48,478 nt of DNA from Gammaproteobacteria bacterium (GTDB taxonomy: Bacteria > Pseudomonadota > Gammaproteobacteria > Methylococcales > Methylomonadaceae). Shown piece after piece: positions 40,109 to 46,419 of this stretch; position 1 is the stretch's first letter, and every line of letters starts with the position of its first letter. Both the position numbers and the translations under genes were made by a program. The notes beneath the pieces are model-generated. The model was given only the letters and a program-made list of their open reading frames with translations. It was not told the DNA's origin and did not search any database. The stretch spans positions 1-48,478 of the forward strand of contig VGVA01000008.1 in the NCBI GenBank assembly GCA_016874115.1. The letters run 5' to 3'.

Positions 40109-42259
40109 ATGCCAGCACAACTTCACGCCATTCCCAGCAACGTCACCGAAATACCATTTCAGGATGCGTCCGTCGATATCTGGGACACCAAGTACCGACT
40201 GAAAACCAAACAAGGCGAGGCCTTGGATAAAACCATGGACGAAACCTACCAGCGGGTGGCAAAAGCGTTGTCGGAAGTGGAAGAAGGCAAGGCAAAGCAG
40301 GAGCAATGCTATAAAGATTTTCTATGGGCGCTAAGACAAGGCGTGATTCCGGCTGGACGCATCATTTCCAACGCTGGCGCACAGGAACATAAGCCCGCCA
40401 CCTCCACCATTAATTGCACAGTGTCCGGCACGATTGAAGATTCCATGAACGACATTTTGGGCAAGGTTCATGAAGCCGGTTTAACGTTGAAGGCAGGCTG
40501 CGGCATCGGTTACGAATTTTCCACCCTGCGACCAAAAGATGCTTATGTCAGTGGCGCGGGCGCGTATACCTCCGGGCCTTTATCCTTCATGGACATCTAC
40601 GACAAGATGTGCTTTACCGTCTCGTCTGCGGGTGGGCGGCGCGGGGCGCAGATGGCAACCTTCGACATCGGTCATCCCGATGTCGTCGAATTTATCCGTG
40701 CCAAGCGCGAAGACGGCCGCTTGCGCCAGTTTAACCTATCTTTATTAATCACCACCGAATTCATGGACGCGGTGAAGAACGACCAGCCCTGGGCGTTGTC
40801 GTTTCCCGTCACCGAGAAAGAAGCCAAGGCCGATAAGTTGGATTTGACCGATGATAAGCTCATCGTCTGGCGCGAACATCCAGTCAAAACCGGTTATATC
40901 GTCAATAATGACGGTCTGGTCGCCTGCAAAATCAGCAAAAATATTCCGGCACGTAGGCTTTGGGACATCATCATGAGTTCCACCTACGACTACGCCGAAC
41001 CGGGCTTCATCCTGATCGACAAAGTTAATGAGATGAACAACAACTGGTTTTGCGAAAATATCAGGGCGACGAATCCCTGCGGCGAGCAGCCCTTGCCGCC
41101 TTATGGCAGTTGCTTATTAGGCTCTATTAATCTCACCCGCTTCGTGCAAAAGCCGTTCACCAAAGATGCCAGCTTCGATTGGGATACTTACCGCAAAACC
41201 ATCCGCATCTTTACCCGCATGTTGGATAACGTGGTCGAAATCAATGGCTTGCCGCTGCAACAACAGCGCGACGAAATCCTCAGCAAACGCCGTCACGGCA
41301 TGGGTTATCTGGGGTTGGGTTCCACAGTCACCATGCTCGGCATGAAGTACGGCGACCAGCCTTCCGTTGATTTCACCGAGGAAGTTACCAAAGTGCTGGC
41401 GGTGGAAGGCTGGAAGGAAGCCTTGTCGCTCGCCAAAGAAAAAGGTCCTGCGCCAGTGATGGTACAGGAATACACCGTGACCGGCGAGATGCTGCACAAA
41501 CGCCCGGAAATGCTGGCGGATGGTTATAAGATTGGCGACAAGGTATCTGGCAAAATTCTACACGCCAAATACAGTCGCTACATGCAACAAGTCGCGCAGA
41601 TCGAGCCTGCGCTGGTCGCCGAATTGGCCGAAACCGGTGCGCGTTTCACCCACCACAGCTCCATCGCGCCGACCGGCACTATCTCCTTATCGCTCGCCAA
41701 CAACGCCAGCAACGGCATCGAACCGAGTTTCGCCCACCACTACTCGCGCAATGTCATCCGCGCCGGCAAAAAATCCAAGGAAAAGGTCGATGTCTACTCC
41801 TTTGAACTCCTGGCCTACCGCGAGATGGTTAACCCCAAGGCCATGCCTTACAGCGAGGAACCTGCACTTCAACTGCCCGACTATTTCATCGCTGCCGACG
41901 ACATAACGCCCAAACAACACGTTGACATCCAGGCCGCCGCGCAAAAGTGGATTGACTCATCCATCTCCAAAACCGCCAACGTACCGACCGACTACCCCTA
42001 CGAAGACTTTAAGTCCATCTACGCCTACGCCTACGAAAAAGGCCTGAAAGGCTGCACCACCTTCCGCTTCAACCCGGCGGCATTCCAAGGTGTACTGGTC
42101 AAAGACAAAGACCTGGAAAACACCACCTACCAATTCACCCTGGAAGACGGCCACGTCGTGGAATTCAAAGGCAATGAAGAAATCGAATACGACGGCGAAA
42201 TCCACACCGCGGCGAATTTATTTGATGCGTTGAAGGAGGGGTATTATGGGAAGTTTTGA
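40109..42259 (+). CDS. nrdJa: Class II (adenosylcobalamin-dependent) ribonucleotide reductase, large subunit
   Basis: A 716-residue reductase converting ribonucleotides to deoxyribonucleotides without oxygen. Landmarks are STINCTVSGTIEDSM, LKAGCGIGYEFSTLRP, SAGGRRGAQMATFDIGHPD, the radical-site segment NPCGEQPLPPYGSC with Cys324, GSINLTRF, and HHSSIAPTGTISLSLANNASNGIEP. The chain stops before the C-terminal cysteine tail, which is encoded separately (44388-45086), as in the NrdJa/NrdJb pair of Pseudomonas. It contains only three ATTAAT copies and is richer in GC than most neighbours, which could indicate transfer. Confidence 0.93.
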   Translation: MPAQLHAIPSNVTEIPFQDASVDIWDTKYRLKTKQGEALDKTMDETYQRVAKALSEVEEGKAKQEQCYKDFLWALRQGVIPAGRIISNAGAQEHKPATSTINCTVSGTIEDSMNDILGKVHEAGLTLKAGCGIGYEFSTLRPKDAYVSGAGAYTSGPLSFMDIYDKMCFTVSSAGGRRGAQMATFDIGHPDVVEFIRAKREDGRLRQFNLSLLITTEFMDAVKNDQPWALSFPVTEKEAKADKLDLTDDKLIVWREHPVKTGYIVNNDGLVACKISKNIPARRLWDIIMSSTYDYAEPGFILIDKVNEMNNNWFCENIRATNPCGEQPLPPYGSCLLGSINLTRFVQKPFTKDASFDWDTYRKTIRIFTRMLDNVVEINGLPLQQQRDEILSKRRHGMGYLGLGSTVTMLGMKYGDQPSVDFTEEVTKVLAVEGWKEALSLAKEKGPAPVMVQEYTVTGEMLHKRPEMLADGYKIGDKVSGKILHAKYSRYMQQVAQIEPALVAELAETGARFTHHSSIAPTGTISLSLANNASNGIEPSFAHHYSRNVIRAGKKSKEKVDVYSFELLAYREMVNPKAMPYSEEPALQLPDYFIAADDITPKQHVDIQAAAQKWIDSSISKTANVPTDYPYEDFKSIYAYAYEKGLKGCTTFRFNPAAFQGVLVKDKDLENTTYQFTLEDGHVVEFKGNEEIEYDGEIHTAANLFDALKEGYYGKF

Positions 42260-42290
42260 TGATTTTAATATGTCGCTTTTTATTAACTAC

Positions 42291-42560
42291 CGTTCGTCCT
42301 GAGCTTGTCGAAGGATGAACACATTGAATTAAAGCCGGTTCCCGCACCGGCAGGCGGGTTTCTTTTCTTTGGGCGCGGCCAAAGAAAAGAAACCAAAAGA
42401 AAGGCCGCCCGGATGCCGCTTATTTCCTGCGCTTCTCGCATTTATCAGGGGTGGTCAAAAGGGACTCCTGTCCCTTTGACAATTCACGGCATCCCTGCCG
42501 TGACCCTAACGGGCTATTCCCGATAAATGCTCCGATGCTCGGCGTGGCAAAACGGGAAAG
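42291..42560 (+). repeat. Left copy of an inverted multi-hairpin repeat
   Basis: It opens CGTTCGTCCTGAGCTTGTCG and contains five stems. H1 is GCCGGT/ACCGGC (42334-42351). H2 is a perfect 16-bp stem, GGTTTCTTTTCTTTGG with its complement (42357-42394). H3 has 11 bp with one bulged A (42454-42480). H4 is CACGGC/GCCGTG (42485-42502). H5 is CGGG/CCCG (42510-42522). The same order appears inverted at 44040-44352. Confidence 0.85.
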
Positions 42561-42636
42561 GGTACAAAGATTGGGCAAAGGCAACAGTAGTACAGGGATT
42601 CAAACCCTGTCCCTAAGCAGTGAAATTTAAAAAAAT

Positions 42637-42706
42637 GTAGGATGTGCTGTACAAAGTGAAGCGCATGAATCGCGAACGATGCGGTTTGTTTCTCGGTACA
42701 TACTAC
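42637..42706. repeat. Short GTAGG-type repeat
   Basis: GTAGGATGTGCTGTAC at one end is answered imperfectly by GTACATACTAC at the other, with GCGCATGAATCGCGAACGAT between. The style is that of scattered small palindromic repeats in Gammaproteobacteria. Confidence 0.45.
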
Positions 42707-42751
42707 GAGCTAGTAACAAAATTTCTAATGATAAAGATGCAAGGTCATTAA

Positions 42752-43990
42752 ATGAGGCCACAATGGGAATCTCAAATTAGTATGCTAGACAGTGCGTTGC
42801 AGCAATGGGAAGAAATGTATCCCAAATTACCTGCAACTTTCACATATCAAAATGCTGTTTTTACAGTTAAAGAGCTAACTACATCGTTGAGAGAAATTAT
42901 TGGAATTGTCCGAGCCGTTTCCAGTTGTGAGGATATTGATCCAGTATTACTTGCTGTACATCAGCAAAACATTATCAATGTTTGTGGTCAGATTCCCTCG
43001 GCTATTGTTAATTCAATTGCTAGTCCGCAGAGTTATTTGGAACAATTAGTCGGCTACATCTGGTCGATTCGCTCTTCAATTGTGTGGCTTATTACACCGA
43101 GACTTACTGAATATTATGGAAATTGGGTCAAAAATTCTGATGTATATGGAAAGATAGAGGCTACCGAGGACTTATATAAACGGATATCAGATTCAATCGA
43201 ATTGATTAATAATTCAATAAGTCGTGCTAATGAAGCTGATAATACAGCAAAAAATATTTTACAGGTTATTCAGGGTTACGAACGAGAAGCGGCAAACGCG
43301 AAAACTAATGCTGAGAGTAGTTCATCATTAGCCTTAACAAATAAAGATAATGTTCAAGATTTACTTTCTAAACTTGAAGCTGGGCAAACAAAACAACAAG
43401 AGTTGTTTGAGAAAATTAATTCTCTTCATGAAGCTGCAAACGATGTTCTCGAAGGCTCAAGCAAGGTCGGCTTAGCTGCATCTTTTGCAGCGCGCCGAGA
43501 AAACCTTGAAAATAGCCAAAAATATTGGATTGGTTTCTTCTTTTTTGGAATAGGAATTTTAATTATTGGAATATTTTTGACCACTACTGGTTTCATTAAC
43601 TTAGTTCCTTTAATTAAGGCGGATGGAACCATGGACTCATGGGGTGTCCTTGTACGCATACTGCTTACAGGGCCAGCGATTTGGTTTACATGGTTTGTGG
43701 CGAGGCAATACGGACACACGATGAGATTAATCGAAGATTATGCCTTCAAAGAAGCATCTGCTCTTGCTTTTGTTGGTTATAAGAGAGAAATGGGTGAAGA
43801 CTTAGAAATGATTAAATTACTCAGGGAAACTGCGATCAAGAATTTTGGTGCAGCACCAACAAGAATGCTATCTATTTCAGAACCTTCGTCACCTGTTCAC
43901 GAGTTGGTTGATAAAGCTTTACAAGAAAAAGGTGGATTGGAAAAAGTTACAGAGTTTTTAAAAACAATAGTTTCTAGCAAAAACTCATAA
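42752..43990 (+). CDS. Coiled-coil, two-helix membrane protein of unknown function (cargo gene)
   Basis: A 412-residue protein. Residues 1-130 are mixed helical. Residues about 135-235 look like a coiled coil rich in Asn, Ala, Glu and Lys. Two membrane helices follow (about 259-283 and 297-316), then a cytosolic tail with the motif EDYAFKEASALAFVGYK (328-344). I recall this tail in uncharacterised bacterial membrane proteins of variable regions, but cannot name a family with certainty. Base use is AT-rich and unlike the flanking genes. It is the only gene inside the inverted repeats. A role in defence or stress is possible but unproven. Confidence 0.75.
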   Translation: MRPQWESQISMLDSALQQWEEMYPKLPATFTYQNAVFTVKELTTSLREIIGIVRAVSSCEDIDPVLLAVHQQNIINVCGQIPSAIVNSIASPQSYLEQLVGYIWSIRSSIVWLITPRLTEYYGNWVKNSDVYGKIEATEDLYKRISDSIELINNSISRANEADNTAKNILQVIQGYEREAANAKTNAESSSSLALTNKDNVQDLLSKLEAGQTKQQELFEKINSLHEAANDVLEGSSKVGLAASFAARRENLENSQKYWIGFFFFGIGILIIGIFLTTTGFINLVPLIKADGTMDSWGVLVRILLTGPAIWFTWFVARQYGHTMRLIEDYAFKEASALAFVGYKREMGEDLEMIKLLRETAIKNFGAAPTRMLSISEPSSPVHELVDKALQEKGGLEKVTEFLKTIVSSKNS

Positions 43991-43993
43991 ATC

Positions 43994-44026
43994 CCGTAGA
44001 TTACGCTACGCTAATCGAACCTACGG
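43994..44026. repeat. Short GTAGG/GATTA palindromic repeat
   Basis: CCGTAG...CTACGG ends enclose GATTA-CGCTACGC-TAATC. It resembles the ends of the element at 12591-12763. It sits four bases after the cargo gene stop and may act as its terminator hairpin. Confidence 0.55.
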
Positions 44027-44039
44027 ATGCCAAGGTGTC

Positions 44040-44352
44040 TTTTCCCCGTTATGCCGCGCCGAGCACTGGCGGTTTTGTCGGGAATAGCCCGAAGGGGTGC
44101 GGCAGGGATGCCGCAATTTGCCAGAAGGACAAGGATGTCCTTTCTGGTTTATGCCTTGTGGGTACAAACCTCGATAAAATCGACGGAGCGCAGGATGAAG
44201 CGGCATCGGGCGGATTTCTTTTGGATACTTTTCTTTGTCCGCGCAAAGAAAAGTATCACGCCTGCCGGTGCGGGAACCGGCATTAAAAAATTTGCATTAA
44301 TAACTATACAAAATCAAGTATCGTTCATGGTTCGACAAGCTCACTACGAACG
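44040..44352 (-). repeat. Right copy of the inverted multi-hairpin repeat
   Basis: This copy reads leftward. H1 is identical (44264-44281). H2 is GATACTTTTCTTTG with its complement (44224-44257). H3 is CCAGAAGGAC with GTCCTTTCTGG, one bulge (44121-44147). H4 is GCGGCA/TGCCGC (44099-44114). H5 is CGGG/CCCG (44079-44091). The outer end is CGTTCGTAGTGAGCTTGTCG on the minus strand. Stems differ from the left copy but remain paired. Confidence 0.85.
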
Positions 44353-44360
44353 GTTATAAA
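44331..44360 (+). promoter_or_regulatory. Possible promoter for nrdJb at the insertion edge
   Basis: TTCGAC (44331-44336), an 18-bp spacer, then TATAAA (44355-44360), straddling the end of the right repeat. It could restore nrdJb transcription after the insertion. The -35 match is poor. Confidence 0.35.
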
Positions 44361-44387
44361 ATATAAACAAACCAAAGGAGTCCAACC

Positions 44388-45086
44388 ATGACCCACAAAA
44401 TCAGCAAAAATATCGTCGGCTATAAGGTGCTGACACCGGAAGATAAGGTTGTAGCAGAAGCCAAAACTGCCGAAAGCCAAGTTCAAGCGGATAACCTTAG
44501 CGTTGAGAGTATGCACGAAAATGTCGAGCGACCAGAAGTGTTGCTTGGCTCGACATACAAGATTAAAACGCCGCAGTCGGAACACGCCTTGTATATCACG
44601 ATTAACGACATGATTCTGAATGCTGGAACGGAACATGAGGAACGCCGTCCGTATGAGATCTTTATCAACTCTAAGAACATGGAACATTTCCAGTGGGTGC
44701 TGGCGTTAACACGGGTTATCTCCGCCGTGTTCCGCAAGGGCGGCGACGCTTGCTTTTTGGTGGAAGAGATGAAGGCAGTGTTCGATCCGCGTGGCGGGTA
44801 TTTCAAGAAAGGCGGGGTATACATGCCCTCGCTGGTGGCGGAAATCGGTCATGCGATTGAGTCGCACTTAAAACACATCGGCATGATTAAACCGCAAGCG
44901 ATGAGCGCGCACCAGATACAATTTCTAGCGGATAAGCGCAAGGAATTTGAAGTGCAACACGGTGAAAGTGGTGAAACGGGCTTCCCCGATAAAGCCGTGC
45001 TGTGCACTAAATGCAGCACCAAGGCAATGGTGCTGATGGACGGTTGCATGACGTGCCTGAATTGCGGGGAAAGCAAGTGCGGTTAA
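44388..45086 (+). CDS. nrdJb: Class II ribonucleotide reductase, small C-terminal subunit
   Basis: A 232-residue protein with an AAGGAG site eight bases before its ATG. It has a TSCPD-type domain (YITINDMILNAGTEHEERRPYEIFINSKNMEHFQWVLALTRVISAVFRKGG) and a zinc-ribbon-like cysteine tail (CTKCSTKAM, then CMTCLNCGESKCG). In Pseudomonas, NrdJb is separate from NrdJa and is needed for the full reductase; the tail cysteines re-reduce the active site. Here it lies 2.1 kb from nrdJa because of the insertion. Confidence 0.88.
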   Translation: MTHKISKNIVGYKVLTPEDKVVAEAKTAESQVQADNLSVESMHENVERPEVLLGSTYKIKTPQSEHALYITINDMILNAGTEHEERRPYEIFINSKNMEHFQWVLALTRVISAVFRKGGDACFLVEEMKAVFDPRGGYFKKGGVYMPSLVAEIGHAIESHLKHIGMIKPQAMSAHQIQFLADKRKEFEVQHGESGETGFPDKAVLCTKCSTKAMVLMDGCMTCLNCGESKCG

Positions 45087-46010: not shown

Positions 46011-46419
46011 GAAAACACTCTAGTCGTAGCCCTATTACGTCTGGGAATTACCCAGTCTTTTAGCCTTTTCATGATATTCAAATTACCGAAATTGGTTTTA
46101 CAGAAGGCGTATCCAATCAGCATCCACAACACGCGGTGTGGGTAGTCGGTAAAGTCACTGCTTCAGCCCAGTTGTTCCCTCTACGCGAAGCACATTCCGT
46201 ATCTCGGGGCACCTCATCATTTCACCGGTGCAAGTTCTTATCTGAAGTGTTTGCCTATTGGTATTTGAGGAACCACTACCTTTCGCCGTTTAGCCTGTTC
46301 GATTGCCTATTCTTTTATTGCTTACTTTTATTTAGCAAAGTCAGACAAAAAGGGCCTGAAATAGTGGTTTTTTGATGGTTTTCAGTCAGACCGGATAAAT
46401 ATATTGAAGGAGAACCACG

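Follow-up and report, generated by a model that had tools for sequence, protein, structure and literature searches.

How did a single AT-rich gene come to lie between nrdJa and nrdJb, enclosed by two inverted and structured repeats? The question is raised by the window analysed here, a stretch of 48,478 nucleotides from a member of a gammaproteobacterial methanotroph family. A sequence-only reading had taken the locus for a non-autonomous, cargo-carrying element. This is supported, while "non-autonomous", in the sense of being moved by an enzyme in trans, is still an inference. Since relatives have different cargo or nothing at the same junctions, I interpret the window arrangement as a two-ended, transposase-less mobile gene cassette, with a probability of about 0.7. 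I hold it as highly probable that this is a real two-ended cargo element.

Anatomy of the window locus

The features of the locus are as follows, in window positions.

40109-42259, + strand: nrdJa, the large part of a class II ribonucleotide reductase and the left host gene (PF02867, E 2e-125)
42289-42320, + strand: left outer REP palindrome (CCGTTCGTCCTGAGCTTGTCGAAGGATGAAC), of a repeat family separate from the unit, inverted with respect to 44323-44354
42329-42567, + strand: core of the left structured unit (covariance model R1, 229.9 bits; 251-position match to the right unit)
42334-42351, + strand: hairpin H2, GCCGGT..ACCGGC (covariation, helices 1 and 2)
42342-42345 with 42354-42357, + strand: pseudoknot of the left unit, formed by the H2 loop (covariation, helices 1 and 2)
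42358-42393, + strand: long stem of the left unit, GGTTTCTTTTCTTTG/CAAAGAAAAGAAACC, then AAAAGAAA, a mirror repeat changing with the stem (helix 3; concerted triple)
42413-42550, + strand: multi-branch part of the left unit, with closing helices ATGCCGC/GTGGCAA and TTTATC/GATAAA (helices 5-11)
about 42452-42482, 42484-42503 and 42505-42513, + strand: hairpins within the multi-branch part (helices 5-11)
42752-43990, + strand: cargo gene of 412 amino acids (a 30% identical homologue occupies the same junction of genome G001, also between units)
43997-44028, + strand: GTAG-type REP (CGTAGATTACGCTACGCTAATCGAACCTACGG) within the right unit, from the sequence
44034-44286, - strand: core of the right structured unit, an inverted copy of 42329-42567 (R1 at 44035-44286, 197.4 bits)
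44323-44354, - strand: right outer REP palindrome, inverted with respect to the left one
44388-45086, + strand: nrdJb (TSCPD domain), the right host gene (PF12637, E 1e-7), which adjoins nrdJa in relatives

A Polynucleobacter-1 RNA (RF01718, 70.6 bits) lies downstream of nrdJb on the opposite strand (46080-46236, - strand).

The two ends had been described as inverted copies of each other. When reverse-complemented, the right copy indeed matches the left one over 251 positions with 74.5% identity (BLAST, E 2e-37), and the two window copies are 74-80% identical. The compensated change from GTTTC/GAAAC to GATAC/GTATC is present in the long stem (called H2 in the sequence-only reading), as is that of its fourth hairpin, from CACGG/CCGTG to GCGG/CCGC. 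Its third hairpin, thought to be entirely different in the two copies, can be aligned between them; it shows compensatory changes, and the right copy has an extra 17 nt inserted. In a pairwise comparison of the window copies, 10 pairs are changed on both sides, 55 are identical, 1 is changed on one side only, and 9 are unpaired in one copy. Of the five mirrored hairpins that had been proposed, the inverted structure itself stands, while the outermost of them (42289-42320 and 44323-44354) is a short REP in its own right, with many solo copies in the same genome. Nor does the count of five hold, as the unit also has a pseudoknot, and its 3′ two thirds are enclosed by two long-range helices.

The enclosed gene is AT-rich, as had been noted: GC content is 0.38 inside, 0.56 in the units and 0.50 in the flanks. 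Its product has no transposase domain, and neither a transposase nor any other enzyme is encoded between the window units. As read from the sequence, the 412-residue protein has a long helical N-terminal part followed by two probable membrane segments. It has no match in Pfam and none in PADLOC below E 0.03.

A repeat family conserved as a fold

Is the unit confined to this locus? It is a repeat family with a core of about 240 bp (240-270 bp). When the window's own genome and 40 relatives were searched by BLAST, copies were found in 18 of the 41, both solo and as inverted pairs. In a sample across the whole class, the covariance model R1 detected the unit in 64 of 274 gammaproteobacterial genomes, representing 56 of 222 genera. 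The window's genome has about nine near-full copies, mostly solo and intergenic, and genomes of one genus have 19 to 59 copies each. Many units are solo and some are in tandem. A scan of named genomes with a strict unit pattern gave two records only. Rfam 15 has no match at the gathering score to positions 42200-44450, and the matches at a permissive threshold were dismissed as chance only. No unit match was found in the phage collection and only one weak partial match in the plasmid collection, and two exact unit patterns were both absent from the viral contigs.

As a separate observation, genome G017 has four near-identical units (L228 1884-2121, 4241-4478 and 12555-12792; L229 2179-2416), each inside a MITE-like element of about 500 bp with perfect 19-bp terminal inverted repeats (CAGGGCAAACGCATTAAAA). 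They were considered as evidence of unit transposition and rejected, as they hitchhike inside the larger element. Elsewhere, unrelated small palindromic repeats cluster just outside or inside the units (flanks in L027-L065). They comprise the CCGTTCGT REP, GTAG REPs, a CTCTCCC repeat and the TTGCCGGAATCC repeat, as if the units or their surroundings attract such repeats.

The fold was derived from an alignment of 34 unit copies from 8 genera and 2 families (A1). From 5′ to 3′, the unit consists of an outer hairpin (GTGTCGCTAnCGCGAC), H2, a polypyrimidine/polypurine long stem, a purine tract and a multi-branch domain. The H2 loop pairs with the bases after H2 to form the pseudoknot, and two long-range helices close the multi-branch domain. 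The window copies lack the outer hairpin or have it in degenerate form; in other copies, the position beside the unit is occupied by this hairpin or by other small repeats. RNAalifold predicted 71 pairs, and the addition of four pseudoknot pairs made 75. Altogether 96.4% of the cells are paired, and compensatory double changes occur in 47 of the 75 pairs (343 cells), including the pseudoknot and the long-range closing helices. None of 500 shuffles reached the observed values, and slid structures reached at most 66 cells. The slid control leans in favour of the structure because the structure was derived from the same alignment, and the usual caveat about relatedness applies to the shuffles. 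The covariation is thus strong and exceeds both controls, which bears out the earlier view that paired changes reflect a structure maintained as a folded nucleic acid. Covariation no greater than phylogeny would give, which would have refuted that view, was not what emerged.

The purine tract switches in concert with the stem as its mirror image (A1 columns 35-42, 55-62 and 69-76). There are two states, AAAGAAAA..AAAAGAAA in 20 copies and AAAAGAAA..AAAGAAAA in 12; of the other two copies, one is a near-match and one is partly deleted. Both states were found within one genome. A purine triplex would suit this mirror repeat, which is otherwise unexplained. Outside two conserved positions, there are only 16 G-U cells versus 2351 Watson-Crick cells. 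This rarity of G-U pairs points to DNA rather than RNA as the working form of the unit. The working strand of the fold is undetermined, because A-C cells outnumber G-U cells (47 versus 16) while two G-U pairs are conserved.

Pairs, cargo and junctions

Neighbouring units are mostly arranged with their 5′ sides, where the outer hairpins lie, facing outward ("+-"). For units 0.6-4 kb apart, the first set has 24 "+-", 4 "--", 2 "++" and no "-+" neighbours (p 4e-10). The second set, from ten genomes of which two are shared with the first, has 20, 3, 2 and 1, respectively, at the same spacing (p 4e-8). Taken together, 44 of 56 neighbouring units are outward and a single one is inward. Pairs less than 600 bp apart, mostly gene-less, are "+-" in 9 of 14 and 7 of 10 cases. 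In three complete genomes, 3 to 7 close unit neighbours were observed where 0.2-0.4 were expected. The two ends of one pair are more alike than the genome's other units are on average (0.835 versus 0.797, p 1.5e-4), and the end identity is 0.88-0.955 in about a quarter to a third of the pairs. In genome G125, two complete unit pairs with different cargo lie within about 8.5 kb of one chromosome (L304 1519-9837).

What lies between the pairs? The GC content over 41 pairs is 0.404 inside, 0.586 in the units and 0.537 in the flanks, and 40 of the 41 have less GC inside than in the flanks (p 3e-12). The general scheme is an AT-rich cargo of 0.5-2.3 kb with one or two genes and no mobility gene. 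As regards a composite or DDE transposon, the window cargo has no transposase domain, and Y1_Tnp was the only such domain in the other cargo proteins that were scanned. The first cargo set was gathered because BLAST showed unit pairs. It includes a type II restriction-modification (R-M) pair, Mrr, a PtuB-like HNH protein, a PtuA-like protein, OLD/HEC-04, DUF3644 (PDC-S19), PDC-S05, DUF5131 with a partner (PDC-M41), a dCTP deaminase, MqsA with its neighbours, and HEPN/RES. Further loci have R-M genes, a KAP-type gene (PDC-S20) and a SIR2-like gene. The DNA between pairs, which the sequence-only reading had suggested listing, is thus AT-rich, diverse and often defence-related.

In the first set, PADLOC matches with E below 1e-5 occur in 10 of 20 loci versus 4 of 20 flanking control genes, the latter matching via generic domains such as ATPase, deaminase and Fic. 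Defence enrichment as a universal rule was rejected, since in a systematic sample of one genus the cargo is mostly orphan and the 8 proteins tested gave one very weak defence match. Two pairs bracket native-looking genes, namely nif genes (L053) and metG (L218). When 65 cargo ORFs were compared all against all, they were unrelated except for three REP-associated transposases (RAYTs) and the window protein with its 30% identical homologue in G001. The same cargo was never found at two sites among these ORFs. As they share almost nothing, the movement of one intact cassette is not shown.

The junctions give the presence and absence of the element. In many relatives, nrdJa and nrdJb are directly adjacent, with about 20-40 bp or less between them (e.g., L128, L133, L173, L178, and L179), so that the empty site with which the sequence-only reading had suggested a comparison exists, and other relatives have other cargo there. 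Within the window's genus, the window gene occupies the junction in its own genome (G000), its 30% homologue that in G001, Eco57I-type R-M genes that in G004, and a cytosine methyltransferase with a second gene and a RAYT that in G005. Genome G003 has 226 bp with remnants of the outer repeat, and G008, of another genus, has a unit pair with a PtuA-like gene. In G001, a phytochelatin-synthase-like gene (PF05023, E 5e-24; L162 2183-2998, - strand) lies between a unit remnant and nrdJb. The bracketed window gene is not native; unrelated insertions around a native gene, the other outcome that would have told against the element, were not found here.

A second junction is that of ureC and ureE, which are 5 bp apart in the window's genus. 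In four other genomes, HEPN/RES, KAP-type, SIR2-like or lipoprotein cargo lies between these genes inside unit pairs. Three genomes have end scars there: in G054, a single H2 enclosed by the two outer hairpins, and in G018 and G099, one fused outer palindrome. The scars fit loss by slippage between the end palindromes, although a pre-insertion state cannot be excluded. At a third site, G113 and G125 have neither a unit nor an outer-hairpin scar, while five congeners (G082, G060, G018, G099, and G134) are occupied with different cargo. No target-site duplication is visible at the ends of the G060 copy (TTTGTGTCGC..GCGACACAAA).

Explanations and known systems

The repeat family, its fold, the outward inverted pairing, the foreign composition inside, the presence or absence at junctions in congeners and the cargo differences are direct observations. 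From them, I propose an element of two inverted units of about 240-270 bp, conserved mainly as a fold, with their 5′ sides outward and AT-rich cargo inside, which would frequently be a defence or toxin-antitoxin system without a mobility gene. Recognition at insertion or exchange may rest on the folded ends, in single-stranded or cruciform DNA, presumably through an enzyme that the cell provides from outside the cassette. After a pair has settled at a site, the cargo might also be swapped by recombination through the units, and loss might occur by collapse between the end palindromes, leaving small scars. The unidentified enzyme acting in trans on folded DNA is inferred because none is encoded in the window element and RAYTs were not matched to the units. 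No cognate enzyme was found for the units, the mechanism of movement is not shown, and I would give such an enzyme about even odds.

Homologous recombination through the units is the main rival and probably also a contributor to cargo exchange. The units would be portable homology arms that spread as a structured repeat, and homologous recombination following the uptake of DNA would be the only way in which the cargo is exchanged, as with the Neisseria minimal mobile elements; there would be no dedicated enzyme, and the fold would have another role. This agrees with the finding of different cargo in one junction whose outer flanks are similar, with the 70-95% identity of unit ends within genomes, and with the common solo and tandem units. 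I nevertheless consider it unlikely as the whole account, since it explains neither the excess of outward over inward pairs nor the clean unoccupied site of G113 nor the fold. It is less likely still that a Y1 (HUH) RAYT or TIRYT processes the units as long terminal inverted repeats, with the cargo having replaced the transposase gene. RAYTs do lie between the pairs in L058, L060 and L304 as well as in the nrdJ element of G005; the RAYT is the only family recurring as cargo (three annotated pairs carry one), HUH enzymes would be consistent with outward hairpin ends that lack a target duplication, and REPtrons and TIRtrons have already been described (PMC3733652, PMC8266576). Against this, GTAG-REPs of their own lie on both sides of the RAYTs in L058, L060, L051 and L166, the majority of RAYTs in genomes with units are not close to a unit, and Y1_Tnp is equally common in genomes with and without units. 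The RAYT as the cognate transposase, which the RAYTs between units in L058 and L060 had at first made a strong candidate, was rejected on these grounds, and the RAYTs near units are probably not cognate.

Could the unit be a transcribed RNA that acts as a terminator, an attenuator or an sRNA, its pairing around genes being incidental? The strong covariation with a pseudoknot and the two conserved G-U pairs would allow it. I regard it as very improbable, given the otherwise very rare G-U pairs, the lack of an Rfam match and the unexplained foreign composition between the pairs; since the ends are inverted, at most one of them could be sense for the cargo. The idea that two ordinary intergenic repeats were inserted independently around a native gene has on its side only the solo units in the window's genome and the difference of about 20-25% between the window ends. 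The orientation and spacing statistics, the GC contrast and the adjacency of nrdJa and nrdJb in relatives have already refuted chance as a general account, and I regard it as scarcely credible.

Returning to the two-ended cassette, it seems to be a hitherto undescribed means of mobilising defence genes that does not encode its own transposase. Tentatively, and with somewhat more doubt than belief, I suggest an unrecognised class of mobile cassettes, widespread in Gammaproteobacteria, in which an unknown enzyme recognises a folded-DNA end made up of pseudoknot, multi-branch core and mirror purine tract. Each genome would then hold many exchangeable single-gene cassettes, many of them anti-phage, as an integron-like reservoir without an integron. 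If this holds, there is a carrier for single defence genes scattered outside islands and prophages that escapes current annotation, since it lacks a transposase and it is the fold of its ends, not the sequence, that is conserved. The model R1 would be a handle to pull new candidate defence genes from genomes, since most cargo has no family and the nameable cargo is often defence. The question raised is which enzyme reads a DNA fold of 240 bases.

No description of this cassette was found in the open-access literature; subscription-only papers and preprints were not covered. The closest described kind is the TIRtron (PMC3733652). In TIRtrons and REPtrons, long terminal inverted repeats or REPs enclose a RAYT or TIRYT gene (PMC3733652, PMC8266576). 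They share with the unit element intergenic, inverted and partly self-complementary repeats around one gene (as in the window), solo repeat copies in the genome, and no obvious target duplication. In contrast, the gene between the units is usually not a tyrosine transposase (no Y1 gene lies between the window units), the cargo is diverse, the unit ends are about 240-270 nt with 11 helices and a pseudoknot, and RAYTs close to units come with REPs of their own. REPINs (PMC3116915) are likewise outward-inverted doublets of a palindromic repeat, and cargo-less unit pairs of 70-600 bp resemble large REPINs. However, the unit arms are about ten times longer and have genes between them; the window is not a gene-less doublet, although gene-less close pairs exist elsewhere.

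Mobile insertion cassettes also have a passenger gene between inverted repeats, no transposase and a presumed mobilisation in trans. In those cassettes, the repeats belong to a known DDE transposon and produce target duplications, whereas the unit ends are structured and covarying and match none of the known transposons that could be tested, which did not include an insertion-sequence database. The Neisseria minimal mobile elements have different cassettes between the same two conserved genes without a mobility gene, as is also the case at nrdJa-nrdJb, ureC-ureE and the third site. They are not known to have dedicated structured ends and are exchanged through flanking host genes, while structured units lie at both ends of the cassettes described here. 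An integron has one attC per cassette, direct arrays and an integrase, whereas the unit element has two inverted ends and dispersed sites, and no integrase was noted in the regions read. The likeness to integron cassettes lies in the small, AT-rich and hugely diverse cargo, often defence or toxin-antitoxin genes, and in a recombination site that is conserved as a folded DNA strand, not as a sequence.
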